Shown piece after piece: positions 891 to 64,000 of a stretch of DNA of 64,000 nucleotides. A model generated the notes under the pieces. It saw only the letters and a list, made by a program, of their open reading frames with translations. It made no database searches and had not been told where the DNA came from. The translations under genes and the position numbers were made by a program. Source of the DNA: Anthostomella pinea (Eukaryota > Ascomycota > Sordariomycetes > Xylariales > Xylariaceae); the NCBI GenBank assembly GCA_963556695.1, contig CAUWAG010000018.1, forward strand, positions 868,001 through 932,000. The letters are read 5' to 3'. The number at the start of each line of letters is the position of its first letter. Positions within the stretch are counted from its first letter, which is position 1.

Positions 891-3800
891 ATGTCACACG
901 CCTGGCTCGATTCGCTGTCTGAGGACTGGGTATCTCAACCAAGATCCGACACTTCTCAAGGCCAACTGCCTAGCTTCTCAAGTCCACCAGCCCATGCTCG
1001 TTCGAAAAGCGTGCGCGAGACTGCCAGCCGCATACCACGATTACATACCGGCAATGCGGGCACAAGGAGACCGCAGCCGCCACCACGCGACGGCAGTATC
1101 AGTGCTCTGAGCGAGCGGAGTCCCAATGACATCAACATCAAGGGGTCGCAAAGTGCTCTCTCGAAGCTGTCACAAGAGATGAAGCTTTCCCAACGAGGTC
1201 GACATTTGAGTAGATCCGTGTCGGCTTCCACAGCTGGTTCCGTCGTCCACAACACTGTCCAACACAAATCGCAAAGCGCCTCGCCTTCGAAAGGCAAGGA
1301 ACAAGCCCCGGAATGGAAAAGACGATTGTTATATGGGGAGCTTGACTATGGCGATTCGAAAGATCTGTTCAGCTCGGCGGGAACCGGTCTGGCGAACATG
1401 TTTAAGCCACCTGTGGAACACACGTCTCCGGAGGAAGAGTCGAATGAGGACGAGGCCTATACAGTGAACGAGACGACTTTACCATCGAGTCCACCCCCGT
1501 ACTTGAGGTTCCGGCGAGACCAATTACACGATGACGAGACCCAGGACCTGTCCGTCAACGACTCGTCTATACAACACGCCCCACCCCTTCCCAAGCAGAT
1601 GGCATTTCGAAGGACCGAAGATGACACCAAAGACATGAGTGTTGGACCAGAGTCGACTTTGGAAGGAAGCCGTGATGAGCAAGCCACGGGAACGAACGCA
1701 GCCAGCGAGACCTCCATCACTTCGCTTAATGTAATGCAGCGTCTCGACGCGTCACGGAAGATTAGTGGCCAAAGCGACGTGAGGAACGAGGACCTCAGCC
1801 CCATATTGATATCGCGTCACAATACTGGAGATGGTAAGATCAGTTACGCACCAATTGATCTGCCTGCTCAACAACTGCGGAAACAACTCGAGAAACTGCG
1901 AATGAGCCAGATGATATTAGAGTCTGAGCTGAACAGCGACCCGGACCGCGATACTGGTGCCGTGGGTGATGGAACCCAGACTTTCGAAAACACGGATGAC
2001 TATGCGAAGAATGGAGGGTTTCTGAACCTCGAAAGGGTTGGACGGTCTGGTGAAGGGTCTTTTCGACGCCGTCCTCTGAGTCCCTCAGTCAATACGGACA
2101 CGTCCGAAATGCTACCGGAGTCGTCGCTCCAGGCCAGTACCCCAAAGCAGTTCCCAACCATCAGGACAGATCGTTATGCGTCGGCTGAGAGGATAGACGA
2201 GCCGACATCTCCCGTCAGCCCTGTTGTACCTCGGGCTCCCCATCCCAGCCCAGAGAAGCGGCTACAACCACCCCCTGGCCACAGTGGGAGTCCGTTGAAG
2301 CTCTTTGGGCCCTACGACACATTCACAAATCAGACCCTGCTACGACGTATAAGTCAATTCGAGGATCAGATAAGCAACAGTCCTCCGCGCTCGACAGAAG
2401 GCGCCGCCGTTGCTTCGCCAATGCCAGACTCGCTGCCGAAACCTGACACCAACGAAGGCTTTGTGGGTATGTCCAGCTCGGGAAAGATGCAGCACCATAT
2501 CAGTCATGCTCACCACGAGACATTCGGCGCGATCAACAGATTTGGCGCTGGAGAGCTTGATGGTTACGAATTTGATGAGGACATCTCGTTGAGCTCCAAC
2601 GAGCCCTCGCGTTTCGAGGACAAGGAAAACATGACACCCGCAGAGACTCGAGTGCCATCGAACCATCCTTTGAAATTTGAGATTCACAACGACCACTCTT
2701 CAGATGGAGAGTCGCTTGTCGTCCAACGGCAACGCCACCGCTCGAGCAGTTCCCTATCATCTAAGCACCGCTTAGGCGCAACCAAGTCCGTCGACGGCTC
2801 ACAGCCACGTACCGCTTCTGACACGAAGAGGGAGACTGGTGACTTCCAAACAACTCCGCAAAGGGAGGGCTCGGAAGGCAAGAGGCCGCGGACTTCGCCG
2901 ACCAAAGACCCCACGCCGAAAAGGAGGAGGACCTTACACAGGTCCGACATTGCATACGGGCTCGAAGACCGACCGGCAGCCATAGAACCCGTGCAATCAT
3001 CCCATTACAGCATGCAATCTGCCATAGGAAGGAAGCGCAAAGACGTACGCTATGGTGAAATGCAACAGGTTGCTGAGCCGAGTATCCTGGCAATGCGTCA
3101 AATCCTGCGGCCTCGCTCGCCAACGCCAAGCCAGAAAATGTCGGCGATGCGCGAGCGACAACCTCTTGGAGATATCGGATTGAATCTGGATGACGGTCAC
3201 AGTGAGATATCAACTCAGGATCAAACCTCACCCGGATTTGCTCAAGATTTCGCTGTTGATGGGTCTCGGAAAACATCCATGAAAACCCAAGACTTTTACG
3301 ACGCAGCCGAGGAGATCATGGCGATGATACGGAACAAAGCCCGGCCCAGGACTGATCTCGCCAGTGTGGAGGAGTCTGAAGTTGAGAGTTCCGAACATCG
3401 AAGCTATGACACGTCAGGCGCCATCGAAGATTCGTTCCAAGAGTCCACAAGGGAGCCTTTCTCACGTCCGCCAAGCCGAGAAGGGCGCCCAGTCTCCAGG
3501 ATGCCAGTGCGTCAAGAGGATCCGGAGCTTGCAGATCGGCTTAGGAAGTACGAAGAACAAAGCGACGTCCTGGGTGGAATCATTTCCCACTCAATCCAAT
3601 CTATGGGACGAATCCAGGATGCCATTCACGGAACCAACAGTTTCAATGAGTCCATAGAACGCAGTGTTCGAGCTGATGAGATGCGGCGGAGCTCACATGA
3701 TGACGAAGAGGTTATCAGCGACCTGTCCAACGTCAGGATCTCGCGGAATCCAGACCGCAGTACCGCTGGCGAGAATGTGGTCGAGTTCCCTTCAAACGGG

Positions 3801-20437: not shown

Positions 20438-22036
20438 GCAAATCACCTTCGAGGACTATGCAAGACGGTCAAAGGACTTCCAGTAAAGTCAACCAGGAGG
20501 GCTGTGATAGCTTGTGTTATCCCTATTCTTACACACGGCTTGGAAGCCTGGTACCCAGGAATGGAAAAGACTAAGAGCTCAGGCGTGACATCAGCGTGTC
20601 GCATCAAGGGGCTTCTCAGAACGATGGATGCTGTATTACGAACGGCGATCAGAGCTATCTTGCCGGTCTGGAAAACACACCCTGGACATATCCTACATTT
20701 TGAATCACAGATTCCCCCAGCAGGAGTTCTCACGGAGTCAATAAGACGATGTCACCGCCTCCGGCTCGGACGAATAGACCAGAGACACCCTTTTGTCGGC
20801 AGGCTCTGAATATAAGCTCGCAAGGAACTGACAAGGCTATAAAAGAGATACCAGCTAGTTCCTGACTTCCAGAGACCAACACTCACTAAGCCATCGTGGA
20901 AGAAGCCCCCAATCTGTAAGGATAAAGACAAAAAAATAAAGCTCTTCAAACAATGGCTATGGGGGAGAAACGTGAACACTGACCTTGTCATCTACTCGGA
21001 TGGATCGCAGCTGGACGACCAAGGCACAACCCGCACTGGATGTGGTTTCACTATCAGGAAAGGCGGCATTACACAAGAAGTGTATCAGGAAAGGGCAGAC
21101 TTCTCCAAGCAGAAGTGGTAGATGCTGAAGTCCGTGGCGCTCTCTAAGGTCTTGCAGCAGCCAGGGCAATTGGGCGCGAAAAACGGCTGTAAATCTGCCT
21201 TGACAATACGTCGGTGGTAGATGGGCTCAATGGGACTCCACCCGAGACATCACAGAACATTTTTCTACGATTCCAAGAACTCGCCACAGCACACACTCCT
21301 GGGGTGACCGTTAAGTGGATCCCTGGACACAGAGATATCGATGGTAACGAAGCTGTTGATATATTAGCAAAAGAGGGTGCCATGCTAGAAACAGAAGTAA
21401 TGAACCTTCCCATAATCTCTTGGGTAAAGAGAGATCTCAAAAGAAAGGGCAAGAGAGAATTTGATCAATGGTGGGAAGGTCGATCAGAACCTAGGTATCA
21501 AGAAGTATACTTATATATAGTAATTAAAAGGGACCTCATATCTTTTAAAAGGAGTATTTTACACAGACTTCTAGCGGCCAGATCTGGACATGGCGACTTT
21601 GCTGGATACCACGAACGTTTCGGGCATACAGACTCAAATGACCACTGCAGCTGTGGTAAAAGGAAAACACTACAGCATATTTTCTTTTGCGAAAGGCTTA
21701 GGAAGAACTGACTGCTGCCCAGGTACGCGCCTCGGGCAGCCTGTTTACAATACCTGGGGGAGAGGAGCGTGGAATGAGCAAGATTTGTGGAGAAGAGCAA
21801 GTTCTTCTCATCAATCTGCCCCCGATAGATAGCTATTTTTGAAGGACCAGATGGATGACCTTAAAGTCATGCCACCGCAACAGCGGGGATGGGCTCGTGA
21901 GCGGATCTGACTGTACATAGTATCTTGATACCTCCACAACCCTGCGATGCAGAGGCTCTGGGAGGCGTGGTTTGCACTACTGAGGAGCAATCCCCCACGT
22001 TAAATACAAACAAACAAACAAACAAACACAAACAAA
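20438..22036 (+). mobile_element. 5'-truncated, decayed non-LTR retrotransposon (LINE, Tad1-like)
   Basis: About 1.6 kb. From the left end the translation reads the end of a reverse transcriptase domain (ILTHGLEAWYPGMEK). An RNase H domain follows, with its first catalytic Asp in VIYSDGSQLDD and its end in WIPGHRDIDGNEAVDILAKE. A CCHC-like C-terminal finger (HCSCGKRKTLQHIFFC) comes next. The frame is broken by several stops and shifts (for example near 20838, 21120 and 21215). The 3' end carries an (AAAC)n tail, and a 12-bp direct repeat GTATGTTCAGTC flanks it. RT followed by RNase H with an A-rich tail is typical of fungal Tad1-clade LINEs. The element is dead because its 5' two-thirds is missing and the remaining frame is disrupted. 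Confidence 0.9.
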
Positions 22037-45173: not shown

Positions 45174-46393
45174 CGCAGGTGTTTTGGAGAGGATATCTGG
45201 GAGGGTCGATGATTAAGCAAGGCGAATGAGTGTGGTGTCGCGGGCTGTGGAAAGGCAGTGTGGGTATGTGCTACAAGGTAGCACGAGATGGGGTTGAAAG
45301 TAAAGTTTTTGGGATACCACGAACTGCGAATTACCTGTTAAATAGACGTATGACAGTTGCTATGTCTGAAACATTCGGTTGCCGCGCATTCAGCTGCACG
45401 GTCGAGTAGGTTGTGGTTGTTGATTCATCGGACAAAGGAATCCATGAGAATCACCAACACCCAGCGACCAACATCAACACCAGACAAAGCAAATTGTTGG
45501 ACTCAGGTGTCAGACTTCATCACAGGTCGGCATGCACCAACAGATTCGCCAAATCGCCTGTGTGACTCACGAACAATGCATTTCCAACAGGCAACTTCTG
45601 TACTGGTCCAACACATCAACTCGCCGCCCGGGGAGCTGCACCTTTTGATACCAAAGTCACAAGCAACCATCACGAGAAATTATGCTCATAACGGCTGGTC
45701 CATTTAAGTGAAGAGTAAATAAGTGATGGAGTGACTGGTTGAATATATCATTCCCCAGTGATGCACTGGAGGGTAATAGAACCCAACCGTTCATTCACCA
45801 ATACTAGGTGCAGACGAGGTAAGCAGTGACAGAATTGAACAAGTGAATTGCCAATCCGTGAGACGCACCCCGGGTGAGTTCAAACGGCTCGCAAGGTTCG
45901 ATCTCGCTGCACTCTGCATAGTAGAAGGCGAAAGAGGCATGCGGGCGCTGGTGACAAGTCTCGTTGCTACCCTTTCAACCACCTGCTCCACACCATACCT
46001 GGTGACTATGGTGCAGCCCTCGTCGGACTTGGCCAGCGACCACGGTAGTAGACTTTCGATCGGTCGAGCGTTCTCAACCACAAACGGCACAATATCATGG
46101 GCAAAAATTGGCTTTGTCAATGCTGGGTTTGCGAAACGGGGTGATGCAACTGGTGGGCTCGCGAGGAATCGCCTCAGGGGTAATCGAAAACCTGATTATA
46201 TTCTAGAAGAACTAGCCCAACATGGATTTCGCTCTGGTGACATGAAATACTCAGACATGAGGAACTCGCTGATCTTTAGAAGCGCTGATCCGTCTCGAAA
46301 AGCTACGTAGATATGGTACTTTACTTAAGTGATGCACCGAACGAGAAGGTAGGACCGACCCCCTTGGCAACCGAATAGCAATATGGAATGTGC
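45174..46393. other. intergenic with unexplained open frames
   Basis: Overlapping frames on both strands at 45791-46310 (155 codons plus, 109 codons minus) have no recognised domain. The minus frame (PIFAHDIVPFVVENARPIES) looks slightly more protein-like and could be a decayed exon. Not called. Confidence 0.4.
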
Positions 46394-47450
46394 TTAGAAA
46401 CCCTCATGCACATACTCGACTGGCTCGACGTGCTTAACCGCCGCTCCTTCGGGCCGGATGATAAGCCCCTTTGGCGCGGACGTCATCGCAGTGCGCTGGT
46501 GGATCCAATCCATGATGCTGTCGTAGTTCCTGCACTGGCGGCTGACGCTGAAGTCAGGCCAAGGTGTGTCAACGTGAGCTACCCAGTCGTACGTGATGAT
46601 ATGTAAATCGGCTGAGCACATGATGACTTGGCGAAGCATCTCGATACAGTGGTCTGCCGTCCCTGTCAGTGGTTGCTACCTACCCATATGTAGCGCCACT
46701 CACCCATGTGCGTCCTCAGCTTGTCAGGGTCGGAGAAGGGCGCTGATTTGTCGGCGTAGTACTCCCTGTACGAGAACTTTCGCAGCATGTCCTGGGCAGT
46801 GGGTCAGCTGCCACCTATGGATGGATATGTATCCGGGAGACTTACCACGCAGTGCATCTGGTGAGTAGCTTCCAACGAGGCCATGTAGCCACCACCGGAT
46901 TCTGGAGGCAACATGACGCTAGTATTGTGCAGCTTGTTAAGCCTCTCCATCTGCTCTCTGGTGATGGAGAAGACGCCAGCTGGATCGAGAAGTCAGCTAA
47001 GAACGTCTCTGTGCTGGGATATGCACATGCCATGGGTGATATTCTCCCACGCAGCATCAACGTCGGCATTAGGTTGCCCACGCCATGGCGACGGCTGCGC
47101 GAATTCCCCATAGTATTGCCACGAGTGCCGCAGGCCAACGGACTCGACGGCCTTGCCTTTTGAAACGTCAGCAGTGTTCAAGCAGTAGACACGCTCCACA
47201 TACTGTATTCTTGAGTGTATCCTGGCTCGTCAAAACCGGCAGGCCCCAAGCTCCGATGGTAATTGGCAGCAGCCGCCACGAACAAAGAAGCTGAGATCAG
47301 GAAGGAAATCACGTGAAGGATCCAGGGCCACACTCGACGGCGAGGTCCAGTCTGATATGACGAACGCGGGAGGAAGGTACCGGACTCGCTGTCCGAGTCT
47401 CTCGACTCCGAGTCCCCAACTAAGGAGTATTTAGATTCAGAAGCCGCCAT
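46394..47450 (-). CDS. UstYa-family (DUF3328) oxidase, RiPP cluster copy 1
   Basis: Five exons (47204-47450, 47031-47156, 46846-46979, 46704-46791, 46394-46653) give 284 aa, all in phase. After a Ser/Asp-rich N-terminus comes one membrane helix (WPWILHVISFLISASLFVAA). Next is YSKAVES, then SPWRGQPNADVDAAWENI, then the two family hallmark motifs: EATHQMHC and, split by an intron, HMDHCIEMLRQ. It continues MCSADLHIITYDW and ends near VEPVEYVHEGF. UstYa proteins carry out oxidative cyclisation of ribosomal peptides (ustiloxin, phomopsin and asperipin pathways) and act in the secretory system. Intron 2 needs a GC-AG donor (GCATGT). Transcribed away from the precursor gene at 48223. Confidence 0.88.
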
Positions 47451-48222
47451 GCTGCCAACAAGTGCAGGTAAGAGATGGAGTGTTGGGTATGAGGATGGAG
47501 GGTAGTAGAGTGAAAGGGAGCGGGACTATGAGCACAGGCTCATTAATACCATACACGTAGGGGGGCACACTTGGTCTGGATTTGACCCATGCCAGCAAAT
47601 ACATACGGAGTCTGGACCACGTCACTACCATCCGGGCTGAATATGTCCGTCTTATCACATGGATTCCATGAAGGGACATAAGATCTGCATCTCGTCCTTA
47701 CTAGGTAAAGCCAACTCTGCGAGCACAATGTCGAGGGGTGGTGATCTTGCCTGGAACAAGTACCGGACAAGGTTCCAGGCATGATAACCACCCCGGAATA
47801 TTGCACTGTGACAAATCCACATGCAGCCGTAGGCGCATACAGGTGCCTGCCTGGGTCTTTATCAGCAACGAGAAGAAGACTGCATGTCGATGTACACAGA
47901 AGTGGCAAGTGCGAGCTCTTAGACGGGGCCAGATGTGACAGAACCCCTGGATCTTGCATCCGACTGACGATGGTAGTCATGCAGCACGAGGGAGCACATC
48001 ACCTAGTGTTGACCAGGTCCGGAAGAAACCCGGGAGGAGCAGGCAATTGGACCGAAGCTGCCTGACGAGTATAAAGTATACCATAATCCGTCACTGATGA
48101 GAGTCCCGCGGACACACAACACCAACGTCTCAAGTTCATCACGCTTCAGCCAACCAAGAAGGACCGCAGCACCTCGTCCCCATCATCACCAATCATCAAG
48201 GCAACTTCAGTTCATCTTCATC
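47451..48222. promoter_or_regulatory. divergent intergenic region of the RiPP locus
   Basis: 772 bp between the first UstYa start codon and the precursor start codon, holding both promoters. It contains the large inverted repeat at 47735-47794 and a TATAAAG-like box at about 48071 some 150 bp before the precursor ATG. Confidence 0.55.
47735..47794. repeat. large imperfect palindrome, 23-bp arms, 14-bp loop
   Basis: The left arm 47735-47757 (starts GGGGTGGTGATC, ends TGCCTGGAAC) pairs with the right arm 47772-47794 (starts GTTCCAGGCA, ends GATAACCACCCC) with two mismatches. It sits between the divergent UstYa and RiPP precursor genes. Confidence 0.75.
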
Positions 48223-48808
48223 ATGCATTTCCACCTCACGACTACTGCCGTTGTGGCCATCTTGAGTGCTTTGGCCTCAGCTGCACCTACCCGTCAGTAC
48301 CCCTATGCTGTTCCAAGAGTCATCGTGTAGACCCAAACTGACGAGCTTAGCAGCTGACCGCAGGGGAGTTGACCATCTCCACAAGCGTGATGAGGAGCCA
48401 GTGGATGTTATGGTCAATACCCAGTACAAGCGTGATGAGGATGAGGAGCCAGTGGATGTCATGGTCAACACCCAGTACAAGCGTGATGAGGAGCCAGTGG
48501 ATGTCATGGTCAATACCCAGTACAAGCGTGATGAGGATGAGGAGCCAGTGGATGTCATGGTCAATACCCAGTACAAGCGTGAGGATGAGGAGCCAGTGGA
48601 TGTCATGGTCAACTCCCAGTACAAGCGTGATGAGGAGGAAGTGGATGTCATGGTCAACTCCCAGTACAAGCGTGATGAGGAGGAAGTGGATGTGATGGTC
48701 AACTCCCAGTACAAGCGTGATGAGGAGGAAGTGGATGTGATGGTCAACTCCCAGTACAAGCGTGATGCTCAGGAGGAAGTGGACGCGCTGATCAATCTTT
48801 TCTACTAG
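48223..48808 (+). CDS. ustiloxin-type RiPP precursor with eight Kex2-bounded repeats plus a ninth
   Basis: Exons 48223-48292 and 48354-48808 (GTCAGT / AGCAG, phase 1) encode 174 aa. Residues 1-20 are a signal peptide (MHFHLTTTAVVAILSALASA). A short leader ends in HLHKR, then the repeat array fills 48389-48808. Eight units each consist of an acidic spacer (DEEP, DEDEEP or DEEE), VDVMVN, T or S, QY, and KR; the ninth (EEVDALINLFY) is diverged and ends the protein without KR. Signal peptide, KR after every core and acidic spacers are the hallmarks of dikaritin precursors (UstA type), cut by Kex2-like protease and cyclised by UstYa oxidases; both neighbours are UstYa genes. Which residues form the core is unknown; the only Tyr of each unit is directly before KR. 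Confidence 0.92.
48389..48808 (+). repeat. coding tandem repeat array of the RiPP precursor
   Basis: Nine units of 15, 17, 15, 17, 16, 15, 15, 15 and 14 codons. The first four carry NTQY and the next four NSQY. Units 1-4 and 6-8 are almost identical in DNA, pointing to recent duplication or gene-conversion homogenisation. The last unit is divergent. Confidence 0.95.
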
Positions 48809-50165
48809 GAAGACTGGGTTTGGTCTTCCCTTCGACTGAGGGCAGAGGTCATCACACTGCTTTGGACGTCCAGGGGGCTGGGGCTGGGGGGTTTGCTGAT
48901 ATGGACTCGGTCGAGGGCATTTTTCTTCGACTTGGCTGGGCCGTCTTGAGCTTCTAGAAAATCTAACTTGCGTCACTCGTTCATATTCTGACTTTGTTCT
49001 TGCGGATTGCTACGTGTGTGCTGGTCCTGACGCACTACGTCGGTTTCGAAACCAATCAAAGAAAGAAGTTGGCTGTCGTTCTGCAGTAACCCTAGCAAGC
49101 TGTCAACGTCTGGCCTCTGACTTTCATGCTGAACACGGCCCCAATCACATATTGGGCATCGACCGGCGTAGAGGAGCATATCCTGTTCATGCCGTGATCC
49201 CCTCTTTCCGCCACATCGACAGGTCTAGAACATGACCAGAGGAGATTCGCTAAACGCTTGTTAGATATACACTGGCGATGGCAAATGCATACTACCCTCG
49301 TGACTATTCTGACTGGGCCACGTCTCGCGAATCTTCTTCCTAGACAGGTCATCCGTGGAGGTCCATCGCCAAGCAGGTAATCGGTTCGCTGAGCGTAAAG
49401 ATCATGCATGCAGCTTGGACACTCGTCATCGACCACTCGTCATTCCATGGTGGTATAACGGGAAAGCATGCTCGGACCGAGCCGCGGTATTGTGGGGAAG
49501 CGTTCCCGGAGAGCGAGACTCCAGACGGGTCACGACCCCGGAATGCAGGTAATGACGAAGTAGCTAACCTTCAAACATTCGAGAAGACCAATATTACGGT
49601 GATGCAGATCTCAGGAGCTCGGTATACAAGAGTTATAGGTCGGTTGCCCGGAGCTAATGCAAGACGCATGTAAGCCTCAATGTTACATACCGCGTAGTCA
49701 GCTTCACCCCTGCAACGGATAACGTTAAGCCGTTCGGTCAGCGAACCACATGCACCTGCATTCTGTGGCTCTCTCCTCGTCCGGTTTAGGAAACGTTCGA
49801 TGAGTAAACAGGGAAATCGATGCTGTGTGATGGACAGACATCGACACTTTTGAGACGCATACATGGGCATCACATAGCCTACTGCGGGTAGCCCAGTGGC
49901 AAAAACACCAATAGCATCTACTGGATAAGCTTCATCACGCCGACGATCGGTGCAAATGGTCCGGATCGTGCTGGCAATAACATGGCCTGGTGACAATGCT
50001 TCTTAGATCGCCCAGTCTATCCATGCGGGCGAAGGAGGATAGATTTCTTCCGTATGCGTGCAAGATCCCCAAGCATCACTCAGCACCTAGACCTGCACAC
50101 TTGTCTCTCAGGTCAGAAACTGGCCTGGACATGTATCTGTTCTTCGTCATCGTCGGAATCCCATA
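48809..50165. other. intergenic within the RiPP locus, no gene called
   Basis: Minus-strand frames of 114 codons (49092-49436) and 141 codons (49571-49996) show no recognised domain and no family motifs. They may be chance frames or remains of a decayed gene. The right end is the promoter of the second UstYa gene. Confidence 0.45.
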
Positions 50166-51325
50166 ATGCCTAGTTCACCGGACCATCACCACTCCCGCCA
50201 GATACGGCCCCCTACTACGGAGGCCAACTGTGATGATTCTGTCTCTCCTTCGCCCTTGGAGCGGTGCAGGAACTCGGAGTTCAGCTCAACTACTACTCTG
50301 ACCGCGAAGCCATTCTCTACAATCAAGGGACATCGAGACATGGTCGACCCGGAACGTTTCTCAGTACAACGCCCCCAGCGTCGCCGAGCGCTACCACTTT
50401 GTACATGGAGCACAGTTGCAGTGCTGTGGCTCTCCTCTATCGTACTCACGGCGTGGCTCTTTGGCCATTGTGAGACACGACCTAGGCATTCGTACGAGAC
50501 GGGCTTCGACACAGACTTAAGTGAGAACATCGGCCTCACTATGAGGCCTTCTGAAGACTTGAACCACGCTGACATGAACTCAAAGACCCCCTGAGGCCTG
50601 CCATCGAACTCAAGAAAGTGCGGTTTACGGGCGGTCTCAAGTTCCACGAGAACGGCACGACCTATCGCTACCTCGAGCCGGGCGCTACGCAGTATGTCGG
50701 CGAGCCGAGCGAGGAATTGGACCGGGCCTGGAGGCTGCTAATTCAAGGTGAGTATTCTTAGCAGCCAACTATCAGGCTGCCAAGGATACCAAGTTGACCA
50801 TTCTCTTTTCTTCGGCTAGGTCAGGGCGTCGATCTCCTCGGCGACGAAGCGGAGGGGTTGGAAGGAAAAACGTACCAGAAACCAGAAGGTTGGTGGCTAA
50901 CGGGTGCGGATGTGTTCCATCAGTTGCACTGCGTGGTGAGTATTGTCTAGCAGACCTTTTCAGTCGAGGTTCAGGTTGGAACGGACTTTACTCGCTAACT
51001 CACTGTCAGAATATGGTCCGCGAGGCTCTTCGCCCAGACTACTACACGCCACCTAATCCCGAGCCGATACATACCATGCACATAGGTAAGCACTTAGCAA
51101 TATCTTTACCCAGACAGACAGCCGACCATGAGTCTAGACCATTGTATCGACTATCTCCGCCAGGGTGTGATGTGCAGCGTGGACTTGACCATGATTCCCA
51201 TAGGGTGGTCCGACACCAGGAATCGGATACTCCAGAATACGGAGGTGGTCCATACGTGTCGGGATTTCGACAAGGTTCACGAGTGGTCTCTCGCGAGAGA
51301 TGCTGGGGCGCATCCTCTTCCGTGA
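50166..51325 (+). CDS. UstYa-family (DUF3328) oxidase, RiPP cluster copy 2
   Basis: Five exons (50166-50520, 50586-50747, 50820-50935, 51010-51085, 51138-51325) give 298 aa; every junction keeps phase. A basic, disordered N-terminus leads to one membrane helix (WSTVAVLWLSSIVLTAWLFG). It is followed by the family block VRFTGGLKFHENGT, YVGEPSEELDRAW, the motif VFHQLHCV, and HIDHCIDYLRQGVMCSVDLT assembled over the fourth intron. The two HxxHC motifs expected of UstYa proteins are intact. Together with copy 1 it would supply the oxidative cyclisation of the precursor peptides; asperipin-type and ustiloxin-type pathways also use one or two UstYa proteins. Same orientation as the precursor gene. 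Confidence 0.88.
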
Positions 51326-51519: not shown

Positions 51520-52149
51520 ATAAGCGCGGTGGTGTAAGCTCGATGGGACTCTCCACGCACGCTTCCAGTAAACCCATACTTGGGCCGTTGACGGCTCAGC
51601 AAGGAGGCCAAGGCTGGCCCCATGCTCCAAGTCTTCGGTTTGCGGAATTATCCTCTTCAATTCGACCAGATGGAGGAGATGGAGCTGGACGTCGGCGAAT
51701 ACACGACATGGATGGAACTTGCTTTCATGCACTGGTCCGCGCGAATCGACGCGGCAGATGTCGAGTTCGTCCTCGCACCGCCGAGAGACTCCGAGCCTGT
51801 TACAAGGCGACGCAAATCGCCTGTGCTGGGAGACCACTGCCTCTGGATCCTCGACTTCGACTGCTGCAAGGTCATGACGATGGACGAGAACGGCATCCAG
51901 CGAGCGGCGGAAACGTGCTGGAGCAACGATCCGTTCTACCTACGGCCAGCCCACGGGGACGAACGCGATATCGATCTGTGGCGGCATTTCAGGGGCGCGT
52001 TCCTGGAGGCAAGCGCTAGGATCATCATCGCGTCCGAGGATGGTGGCCAGTCTCGAAGTTATTTCCCGGAGAGACTCGTGGGATTGATCGAGGATCGGGT
52101 CGCAACGTTTACGAAAACAACCAAGGCAGATGGTTTGAAAGGAGAATGA
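51520..52149 (+). pseudogene. DUF3669 protein, C-terminal fragment
   Basis: From about 51622 the frame reads MLQVFGLRNYPLQFDQMEEM, then ADVEFVLAPPR, CLWILDFDCC and ETCWSNDPFYLRP, ending KADGLKGE; this is the C-terminal half of a fungal DUF3669 protein. Upstream in the same frame, homology-like sequence (LPVNPYLGR) continues but is interrupted by TGA exactly where CGA (Arg) is expected, and then by TAA. The N-terminal half is missing. The CGA to TGA change is the kind left by C-to-T decay such as RIP. DUF3669 genes are often found in accessory and cluster-rich regions; their function is unknown. Confidence 0.65.
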
Positions 52150-61039: not shown

Positions 61040-64000
61040 ATGGATGCCGCCATTGGTCTAATGCCGCGGGCCATGCTCCGGAATGCCAGCACGGCCGTGA
61101 TGAAGATGAGGGCGGTTGCAGGTCATGCAACCCGGGCCATTTCGAGAAGCTCCATGGCAGGGCGAGCAACAATTGCAAGACAAGATAACGAAACATCGTC
61201 CATCTTCACGGGCCGACATCCTGCAACTCCTGGGCCGTTGAACAGCAGCTGTAACCCTTTTATTTTCCGCCAATGTTTTGCGTCTGTCGCATCAAAGTTC
61301 GTGTCGTGGCCACCTGCCAATTTAGTCGGTGTTGGCGGTGTTGCTATTCCTACGCTAGACTTGCAACGACCCAAAAAGGGACCACCTGCAAGACCCCACC
61401 ACGCCCGCTTACAACAACTTCACCACACCCAACGGCAACGGTCCAGGACCTCTGCCAGGAACACTGCCTCCCCTGTCTCCTCTCGACACTTCTCAACCAC
61501 CCCGACAGCTGCCTGCAACGCCATCATCCCCTCCTCCATCATGGCCGACCGCGACATTCTCCCCGCCACCGTCAAGCCGTCTCACTATGATCTCTCAATC
61601 TCGGCCCTCAACTTCAAGGATTGGTCCTACGAAGGAAGTGTGACGTAAGTATGATAACATCTACCTAGGTAAGCTTTCTAACAGGGTGCAGCATCGATGT
61701 TTCTGTTGCGGAACCGACCAAGGAGATCGTTCTCAATGCACTTGAGCTGAAACTGCTCAAAGCCGAGGTCACCGTAGAGCACACAAAGTCCACCCAGTCC
61801 TTGCAAACCGCCACCTTTAGCTACGATGAGAAGAAGCAGCGCGCAACCCTTCAGTTCACCGAGGACATTCCCGCTTCGCAAAAGGCCACCCTGCAGATCA
61901 GCTTCCAGGGCATCATCAACAATGACATGGCCGGCTTCTACCGGAGCAAGTACAAGCCTGCCGTCACTCCCGCCGCATCAGTACCCAGGGATGATACCTT
62001 TCACTACATGTTCAGCACCCAATTTGAAGCCTGCGATGCTCGCCGCGCCTTCCCTTGTTTCGACGAGCCTCGCCTGAAGGCTACCTTTGACTTTCAGATC
62101 GACATCCCGGATGATCAGGTCGCCTTGTCGAACATGCCCGTCAAGGAGATAGTTCAGACCAAGCCGGGATTCCAGAAGGTGTCCTTTGAACGAACACCGC
62201 TCATGAGCACTTATCTGCTTGCCTGGGCTGTGGGAGACTTCGAATATGTTGAAGCCTTTACTGAACGACGGTACAATGGGCAACAGATTCCTGTGCGCGT
62301 GTACGCTACTCGGGGTCTGAAAGAGCAAGGCCGATATGCCTTGGAACATGCCCCCAAGACCATTGATCTCTTCTCGGAAAGCTTCGGTATAGACTACCCC
62401 CTCCCAAAGGCCGACCTGCTAGCTGTCCACGAATTCACCCATGGAGCCATGGAGAACTGGGGTCTTGTTACCTATCGCACAACTGCGGTACTCTTTGACA
62501 AGAATACTTCCGACGCGAGATACAAGAACCGTGTCGCATACGTTGTTGCTCATGAGCTGGCTCATCAATGGTTCGGCGACCTCGTCACTATGGACTGGTG
62601 GGATGAACTCTGGCTCAACGAGTCCTTCGCTACCTGGGCTGGCTGGTACGCCGTGAATAAATTCCACCCCGACTGGCAAGTTTGGGCCCAGTTCGTCAAC
62701 GAAGGAATGGAGGACGCCTTCGGGTTGGACGGAATGCGTGCTTCTCATCCTGTTCATGTCCCAGTCCAGGATGCTCTCGACGTAAATCAGATATTCGACA
62801 GTATCAGCTACCTCAAAGGATGCTCCACACTGCGAATGCTGGTGAACCATCTTGGAGAGAAGAACTTTCTCAAGGGTGTTGGCGCATACCTCAAAAAGTC
62901 TGCTTACGGGAATGCCAAGACTGAATATCTCTGGCAGGCCTTGAGCGAAGCATCGGGAGAGGATGTGAACGGATTAATGAGCAACTGGATCGAGAAGATC
63001 GGCCATCCGGTGTTAACCGTGGCCGAGGAACCTGGCCAAATCTCGATCAAGCAAAACCGCTATCTCTCTACCGGGGATGTCAAGCCCGAGGAGGACCAGA
63101 CCGAATGGTGGGTACCCCTCAGTCTGCAGGGAAAGGTTGGGCAGCAAGGTATCCATAACTTGACTCTCACGGCTAGAGAAACGACCATCCGAGACATTGA
63201 CGACGAATTCTACATGCTCAACTCCAATGCCACTGGCTTCTACCGAACCAACTATCCTCCGGCTCGCCTAACAAAGCTCAGCACTCAACTCGACCGGTTG
63301 AGCAACGAAGACAAGATTTCCATCATTGGCTCTGCAGCCGACTTGGCATTCTCCGGTTACGGCACGACCCCAGCGCTTCTATCATTCATTGAAGCATTTA
63401 GAAACGAGACAAACCACCTGGTATGGACCCAAGTTCTAGACTCTCTAAGCAGGGTCAAGACCATCTTCGGCGATGATGAGACCATCAAGAAGGGTCTGGA
63501 GAAATTCGCTTTAAAGCTTATTAGCAATGCGGTAGAGAAGATCGGCTGGGAGTTCTCAGACAGCGAGGATTTCCTGACTGGGCAGCTGCGCAAGAGGCTT
63601 TTACTAAATGCAGCCGCCAATGGCCACCCAGAGTAAGTCACGTTTTTCACGTTGCACTTTATCTGCGACATACTGACAAGTGGCTGTTTCACAGGGTAAC
63701 TGAAAAGGCCATGTCGATGTTTGATGCCTGGGCTTCGCAAGGAACTAGCATCCATCCGAATCTGAGAACCGTTGTCTACCGCACCGCCATCAAGACCAAA
63801 CCTGCCGAAGCAGTCAAAGCTCTGAAGAAGGAATGGTCGACCGGCACCTCGATCGACGGCAAAGTCCTCTGCCTGTCTAGTTTGGGCCATGTCCGTGACG
63901 CCGAGCTCATCAAGAAGTCCCTTTTCCCTTTCCTCTTCGAGCCGTCGCCCCCAGCCCCGGCTTCAGACTCCGTACCGTCCGGCGATATGCACTCTCTTGG
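61040..64000 (+). CDS. M1-family zinc aminopeptidase (APE2/AAP1-like), 3' end beyond window
   Basis: Exons 61040-61644, 61692-63632 and 63696-64000 (window edge). The classical start is MADRDILPATVKPSHYDLSI at 61541, but the frame is open upstream to an ATG at 61040, adding 167 residues. That extension is Arg/Ala/Ser-rich with no early acidic stretch and has RHFSTTPT just before the classical start, like a mitochondrial presequence with its cleavage site. The enzyme body has the exopeptidase motif HGAMENWG (near residue 284 from MADRD) and the zinc site HELAHQWFGD, followed 18 residues later by the third ligand Glu in LNESFATWAG. It belongs to the puromycin-sensitive/Ape2 group that removes N-terminal residues from peptides. 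The ERAP1-like C-terminal domain is cut by the window end at MHSLG. Confidence 0.9.

Follow-up and report, generated by a model that had tools for sequence, protein, structure and literature searches.

Gene content of the locus

This study concerns a window of 64,000 nucleotides (C14:868001-932000) from the genome of Anthostomella pinea (Xylariaceae, Xylariales; assembly of 53.7 Mb in 16 contigs) and, within it, a three-gene locus that very probably directs the formation of a ribosomally synthesised and post-translationally modified peptide (RiPP). A repeat-containing precursor gene on the plus strand sits directly between two genes of the UstYa family (DUF3328), UstYa-1 on the minus strand and UstYa-2 on the plus strand; UstYa-1 and the precursor gene are divergently oriented. 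Positions 46394 and 51325, given as the ends of the locus in the first-pass annotation, coincide with the outer limits of the two enzyme coding regions. The three gene models come from manual splicing of the DNA sequence:

46394..47450, minus strand: UstYa-1 gene, five exons (47450-47204, 47156-47031, 46979-46846, 46791-46704, 46653-46394), 284 amino acids
48223..48292, plus strand: precursor exon 1, signal-peptide-like start (spliced model; signal judged by inspection)
48351..48808, plus strand: precursor exon 2, RRGVDHLHKR leader end and nine units (spliced model, repeat analysis)
50340..51325, plus strand: UstYa-2 gene, five exons (50340-50520, 50586-50747, 50820-50935, 51010-51085, 51138-51325), 240 amino acids

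Precursor and repeat units

The precursor comprises 175 amino acids, encoded by two exons (48223-48292 and 48351-48808) with a single intron of 58 nucleotides. Its N-terminus, MHFHLTTTAVVAILSALASAA, is hydrophobic and, by inspection, signal-peptide-like. The leader ends with RRGVDHLHKR and is followed by the array of units. Units 1 to 8 read, in this order, DEEPVDVMVNTQY, DEDEEPVDVMVNTQY, DEEPVDVMVNTQY, DEDEEPVDVMVNTQY, EDEEPVDVMVNSQY and three times DEEEVDVMVNSQY, each followed by Lys-Arg (KR), and conform to the pattern (acidic spacer)-VDVMVN[T/S]QY-KR. Unit 9, DAQEEVDALINLFY, has the divergent core VDALINLFY and is followed by the stop codon, so that Tyr-stop is found where units 1 to 8 show Tyr-Lys-Arg. 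Because unit 9 stops right after the tyrosine, Tyr is the predicted mature end in all nine units.

Tandem Repeats Finder described the array with a period of 45, 8.3 copies and a score of 527. Downstream of the signal-like start, nine KR pairs fall within 153 residues; when these residues were shuffled 2000 times, KR pairs numbered 0.65 on average and never more than 4. A finder of at least three similar KR-bounded units returned no match in 10 x 355,050 simulated bases. The spliced model, the period-45 array and the shuffle test agree with the first-pass annotation, which had described a signal-peptide protein (the signal being judged by inspection) with eight Kex2-bounded repeats and a divergent ninth.

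Three of the nine core codons vary among units 1 to 8: codons 3 and 6 silently and codon 7 between Thr and Ser. Over pairs of these units the proportion of silent differences (pS) is 0.214 and that of replacement differences (pN) 0.026, i.e. the differences are mostly silent; the contrast comes from the three codons just named, in repeats of recent origin. Val1, Asp2, Asn6 and Tyr9 occur in every one of the nine units; position 5 is occupied by Val and, in unit 9, by Ile. These features suggest a core of approximately VDVMVN[T/S]QY that is preceded by an acidic spacer. A genome search found one copy of the precursor, at the locus itself. Pfam gave no family above the cut-off and three weak matches (E 0.002-0.01), none of them a pheromone family.

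The two UstYa enzymes

Protein searches with the three products, as proposed in the first-pass annotation, placed both enzymes in the Pfam family UstYa and found the precursor to be without annotated relative. UstYa-1 matched the family with 189.8 bits (7.8e-56) and UstYa-2 with 151.2 bits (5e-44), at a cut-off of 25 bits. Together with the spliced models, these scores bear out the claim of two flanking five-exon DUF3328/UstYa genes, and each enzyme indeed has both HxxHC motifs intact (HQMHC164 and HMDHC197 in UstYa-1, HQLHC148 and HIDHC177 in UstYa-2).

The second intron of UstYa-1 is of the unusual GC-AG type. This choice is backed by the deposited A. pinea protein Uu.00g064230 (P0001), to which our model is 100% identical over 284 amino acids. 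UstYa-2 has no identical deposited entry; its best relative is 69% identical, and its ten best listed relatives (61-69% identical) come from Xylariales, Xylogone and Trichoderma. The precursor search, which covered annotated proteins of about 96-306 amino acids at E values up to 10, gave no match among the deposited proteins of A. pinea itself either. With the precursor unmatched and UstYa-2 lacking an identical entry, it seems that the deposited protein set either lacks these two genes or contains them as very different models. This suggests that a precursor and one enzyme can be absent from such a set, in which case annotation-based mining would under-count loci of this kind.

The UstYa-1 search listed 17 proteins, including the identical A. 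pinea entry, and the UstYa-2 search 30. In an alignment of 38 of these 47 proteins the His and Cys positions of the motifs are at least 90% invariant. The nine omitted proteins (P0010, P0014, P0016, P0027, P0036, P0039, P0040, P0041 and P0044) are mostly short or have a single motif; P0027 is full-length, but its motif 2 is altered. P0043 has the second motif only.

A structure of UstYa-1 predicted from 38 sequences reached a mean pLDDT (predicted local distance difference test score) of 69. It contains a membrane helix (residues 41-68) and two motif helices (residues 161-176 and 191-212). In this model each motif appears to lie on a helix of its own behind the N-terminal membrane helix, a predicted arrangement that equals the layout reported for CctR (PMC12435403). 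The motif of CctR is reported to form a two-copper centre, with oxygen and electrons required, and the asperipin cyclase AprY is described as copper- and oxygen-dependent likewise (PMC12435403). A sequence search of solved structures yielded 14 matches, the best with an E value of 0.058, which we regard as chance. NCBIfam, which is built for bacteria and archaea, had no match for any of the four proteins searched. A scan of viral contigs with the UstYa-2 family gave eight pattern matches, none of them a relative.

Conservation of the enzyme pair

The closest listed relatives of both enzymes are 59-69% identical over most of their length. Three strains appear in both lists, namely Nemania NC0429, Xylogone PMI_703 and Trichoderma austrokoningii. 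In Xylogone, a leotiomycete, the two relatives (P0007 and P0025) carry the gene tags 859835 and 859837 and both lie on a contig of 5,548,043 bases; the one gene tag between them matches the precursor position in A. pinea. The Nemania relatives P0006 and P0022 each lie on a contig of 162,415 bases, equal contig size being taken to mean the same contig, and a second UstYa-1 relative of this strain, P0009, is on a different one. With a single tag between the Xylogone genes and contigs of equal size in Nemania, the UstYa pair looks conserved across other fungi, as judged from the sequence records.

A midpoint-rooted tree of 39 rows placed UstYa-1 and UstYa-2 in separate clades; three distant matches obtained with UstYa-2 group on the side of UstYa-1. 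The Trichoderma rows (P0008 and P0026) are nested inside Xylariales rows in both clades, with supports of 86/84 and then 99/94 for UstYa-1 and of 88/79 and then 100/97 for UstYa-2. Horizontal transfer of the enzyme pair between orders is a possible explanation. The outer supports of the tree are modest, and paralogy may account for the pattern instead of transfer.

The arrangement of the genes also bears on whether the enzymes act on the repeat protein at all. The latter could be an unmodified, Kex2-processed linear peptide of the pheromone or surface-active type, with the UstYa genes serving another product, and 6120 of the 7878 Kex2 repeat proteins in a published survey are reported without a nearby UstYa gene and may be linear (PMC7329392). 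In A. pinea, however, the precursor sits directly between both enzyme genes, the scanned open reading frames (ORFs) of the window showed no further biosynthetic domain, and in Xylogone the enzyme genes are kept together with one tag between them. The survey reports just three cases of a repeat protein annotated as mating factor or pheromone with UstYa genes close by (PMC7329392); as a fungal pheromone precursor our protein would be set apart by its two flanking UstYa genes and by having no pheromone Pfam family. We consider such a linear product improbable.

Inverted repeat in the divergent intergenic region

A conspicuous element lies in the stretch bounded by the start codons of the divergent UstYa-1 and precursor genes:

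47735..47794, no strand: 60-nucleotide inverted repeat (inverted-repeat search)

It consists of two 23-nucleotide arms and a 14-nucleotide loop containing CCGG and is the strongest inverted repeat in the window (score 17 vs 11 for the next); scores in 12 simulated windows did not exceed 13. At up to two mismatches, a 21-nucleotide piece of the arm occurs in the genome only in these two arms. A single arm match with three mismatches elsewhere was dismissed as chance-like, as a reversed control pattern also gave two places. Our guess is that the element is a candidate control site shared by the two divergent genes.

Neighbourhood of the locus

The ORF list of the window, from which frames half-covered by a longer one were dropped, holds 73 stop-to-stop frames of at least 110 amino acids. 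A Pfam scan took in 64 of them; the frames left out were four elsewhere in the window and five on or against the three genes. Matches were obtained for 12 of the 64: a leucine-rich repeat protein, two kinases, RRM, DUF7580, a MYND finger, FTA2, RNase H (below cut-off), GH64, DUF3669, APC10/CDC45 and an M1 peptidase. The last of these is found at 61669, 10 kb from the locus.

No tyrosinase, P450, methyltransferase, S41 peptidase or transporter was found among the 64 scanned ORFs. Tyrosinase matches are absent from the whole of C14, all 18 matches in the genome being on other contigs, and S41 peptidases gave a single genome match, on C2, and none near the locus. The nearest listed P450 match (C14:859710) is about 54 kb off, with 92 of 342 candidates scored; this genome search alone is a weak negative, which the ORF scan of the window backs. 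For methyltransferases the negative is limited to window ORFs of at least 110 amino acids, from which short exons could escape, and no genome-wide search was made. The first-pass annotation, which had seen no P450, tyrosinase or methyltransferase in the window, is borne out within this scope. A Kex2-type P domain occurs at one place in the genome, on C2 (P domain only).

Directly after UstYa-2 follows a further frame:

51592..52149, plus strand: DUF3669 open frame (Pfam DUF3669, 1.4e-23)

It has stop codons in all three upstream frames and is perhaps cut short at its 5' side; an upstream spliced exon is conceivable as well. The genome contains four DUF3669 matches. On the other side, a frame of 123 amino acids with a hydrophobic start (45939-46307) lies tail to tail with UstYa-1 and has no Pfam or NCBIfam match. 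The RNase H-like frame (21193-21708), which stays below the Pfam cut-off, probably belongs to a retroelement.

The locus could also be what is left, in decayed or silent form, of a larger cluster; the lacking nearby tyrosinase and S41 peptidase and the possibly shortened DUF3669 frame would be traces of this. We judge this very improbable: all three reading frames are uninterrupted, no motif is damaged, the splice sites yield full-length frames, the similarity to the closest listed enzyme relatives (59-69%) extends over most of the length, and four genes are reported to suffice for asperipin-2a (PMC6514808).

Other UstYa genes in the genome

The genome contains 51 UstYa matches, which we grouped into 27 places including the present locus. 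The remaining 26 were examined with roughly 2.5 to 5 kb on either side. KR-bounded repeat precursors were detected at two of the 27, this locus and a place on contig C9 (L026); the repeat finder would miss precursors with fewer units, with introns within the repeats or at a greater distance. At L026 a repeat precursor, MQIKLLVTAALASASLAFPLF..., occupies positions 2942-3379 (C9:4002941-4003378, minus strand) and has three KR-bounded units ending in ETAAWYGWD. A UstYa gene, read by eye, lies at L026:4343-5315 and is divergent from it. We predict that L026 is another UstYa-type peptide locus. It resembles the present one in that KR-bounded repeat units diverge from a UstYa gene; it differs in its core, in a precursor of one open frame and in its single UstYa gene. 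Four rows of the repeat finder at another place (L011) were dropped, since the frames lay on both strands and the units were bounded by dibasic pairs other than KR.

Proposed biosynthesis

Taken together, the genes make it highly probable that the locus is a minimal UstYa-type (dikaritin-like) RiPP locus with a nine-unit precursor and two UstYa enzymes. That its product is a ring peptide appears reasonably likely. For its formation we propose the following course. The precursor would enter the endoplasmic reticulum and the secretory route through its signal-like start. Kex2 would cut after each Lys-Arg, and trimming of Lys-Arg would leave peptides of 13 to 15 residues ending in Tyr. The two UstYa enzymes would then oxidise the cores, most likely to rings, presumably by means of a two-copper centre like the one described for CctR. 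A peptidase encoded elsewhere would free the core VDVMVN[T/S]QY from the acidic spacer.

As to the bond itself, we propose Tyr9 and residue 5 as partners, since every unit has Tyr at position 9 and a beta-branched amino acid at position 5. By analogy, an ether or carbon link could run from the C-terminal Tyr9 to the residue four positions before it (Val5; Ile5 in unit 9). This particular connection is put forward tentatively and must be called doubtful. In the survey cited above, the share of repeat sequences containing Tyr is reported as 65.6% where a UstYa gene is close and as 38.2% where none is (PMC7329392).

Within the RiPP reading the pair could instead comprise a hydroxylase, dehydrogenase or halogenase decorating a linear peptide, with no macrocyclase involved. 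UstYa-family proteins of the phomopsin pathway are reported to install dehydroamino acids. For DUF3328 enzymes in general, hydroxylation and halogenation are described beside cyclisation (PMC12435403). Two UstYa genes with a Tyr-bearing repeat precursor are nevertheless the layout of ustiloxin, where the pair and a tyrosinase are reported to be needed for the ring (PMC6514808), and we regard decoration without ring closure as unlikely.

Several observations weigh against a minimal RiPP locus of this kind. UstYa enzymes are reported to serve non-RiPP pathways as well, e.g. that of cyclochlorotine (PMC12435403). The precursor search, made over 5.8 billion proteins, returned no relative among 2553 candidates; orphans are described as common, 2560 of the 7878 surveyed Kex2 repeat proteins having no homologue (PMC7329392). 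The low pN in the cores may reflect repeat exchange or recent duplication as well as selection. Both motifs are present in only 36 of the 47 listed enzyme relatives, the remaining 11 being partly short rows, and P0027, a close relative of UstYa-2, has lost the Cys of motif 2. The Trichoderma austrokoningii enzymes lie on separate contigs (P0008, 7,484 bases; P0026, 33,606 bases). The flanks of the locus show no recognisable S41-type peptidase, transporter or regulator. Finally, a first structure model of UstYa-1 (9 sequences) was useless (pLDDT 41), and none of the 139 matches of the second model to solved structures reached an E value of 0.001.

A more far-reaching version of the minimal RiPP locus would be a three-gene, tyrosinase-free pathway in which two copper UstYa enzymes alone close the Tyr9-residue 5 rings, which is shared as a unit by Xylariales, a leotiomycete and Trichoderma (partly through horizontal transfer), and which is governed by one palindromic promoter switch. 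As a whole, this combination seems unlikely. UstYa (DUF3328) proteins were reported as copper enzymes only in 2025 (PMC12435403), and where tyrosinases or further enzymes act in the same pathway, the roles of paired UstYa enzymes are hard to separate. A locus of three genes, with one Tyr in the core and an enzyme pair that seems conserved between classes, would allow these roles to be tested cleanly.

Comparison with known systems

Loci of the ustiloxin type (ust-RiPS) have been mined by three features (Umemura 2020, PMC7329392): a signal peptide, KR core repeats and UstYa genes nearby. All three are present here, the signal peptide by inspection, which supports the dikaritin-type locus proposed in the first-pass annotation. 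In the survey, 1758 of the 7878 Kex2 repeat proteins are reported with a nearby UstYa gene (PMC7329392). Both enzymes show the two HxxHC motifs that are described as typical of RiPP-related UstYa proteins (PMC12048977). Measured against the five-gene definition of dikaritins (Ding et al., as told in PMC12048977), the locus lacks the tyrosinase and, among 64 of the 73 window ORFs, the methyltransferase. As to the transporter or peptidase that this definition also names, the 64 ORFs contain no transporter domain, the only S41 match is on C2, and the M1 peptidase is 10 kb away. The same source reports later finds of functioning loci in which at least one of the five genes is lacking, and the newer definition given there, with UstYa as class-defining enzyme, would describe our locus as far as genes go (PMC12048977). 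The locus would thus work like a dikaritin locus, with strict membership depending on the product. The genome paper of A. pinea reports 23 fungal RiPP clusters predicted by fungiSMASH (PMC10763133). Six core strings did not occur in the open-licence text of PubMed Central, supplements being outside this scope. The locus is apparently an unrecorded member of a known fungal ribosomal peptide class.

Among the characterised systems, the asperipin-2a locus of Aspergillus flavus (aprA, aprY, aprT, aprR) is alike in having Tyr-bearing cores beside a UstYa-type gene and, with four genes, no tyrosinase as reported (PMC6514808). It has one UstYa gene together with a reductase and a transporter, whereas the A. 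pinea locus has two UstYa genes and no recognised reductase or transporter. Its core, FYYTGY, ends in Tyr like that of A. pinea (PMC6514808); the two cores are otherwise unlike, the latter having a single Tyr. The ustiloxin B and phomopsin loci likewise have a precursor with several cores and KR sites, along with at least two UstYa proteins (PMC7329392, PMC6514808). They differ in that a tyrosinase is needed and methyltransferases take part, for ustiloxin also a P450 and others, none of which was found at the A. pinea locus, and their cores begin with Tyr (YAIG, YVIP), whereas that of A. pinea ends with it. Victorin from Cochliobolus victoriae differs in being built with Phe rather than Tyr, in being chlorinated and in its cluster-encoded peptidases, according to the published account (PMC9233826). 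Its ring is reported to run from a C-terminal aromatic side chain to an internal aliphatic residue (PMC9233826), which is the topology that we tentatively propose for the A. pinea peptide.

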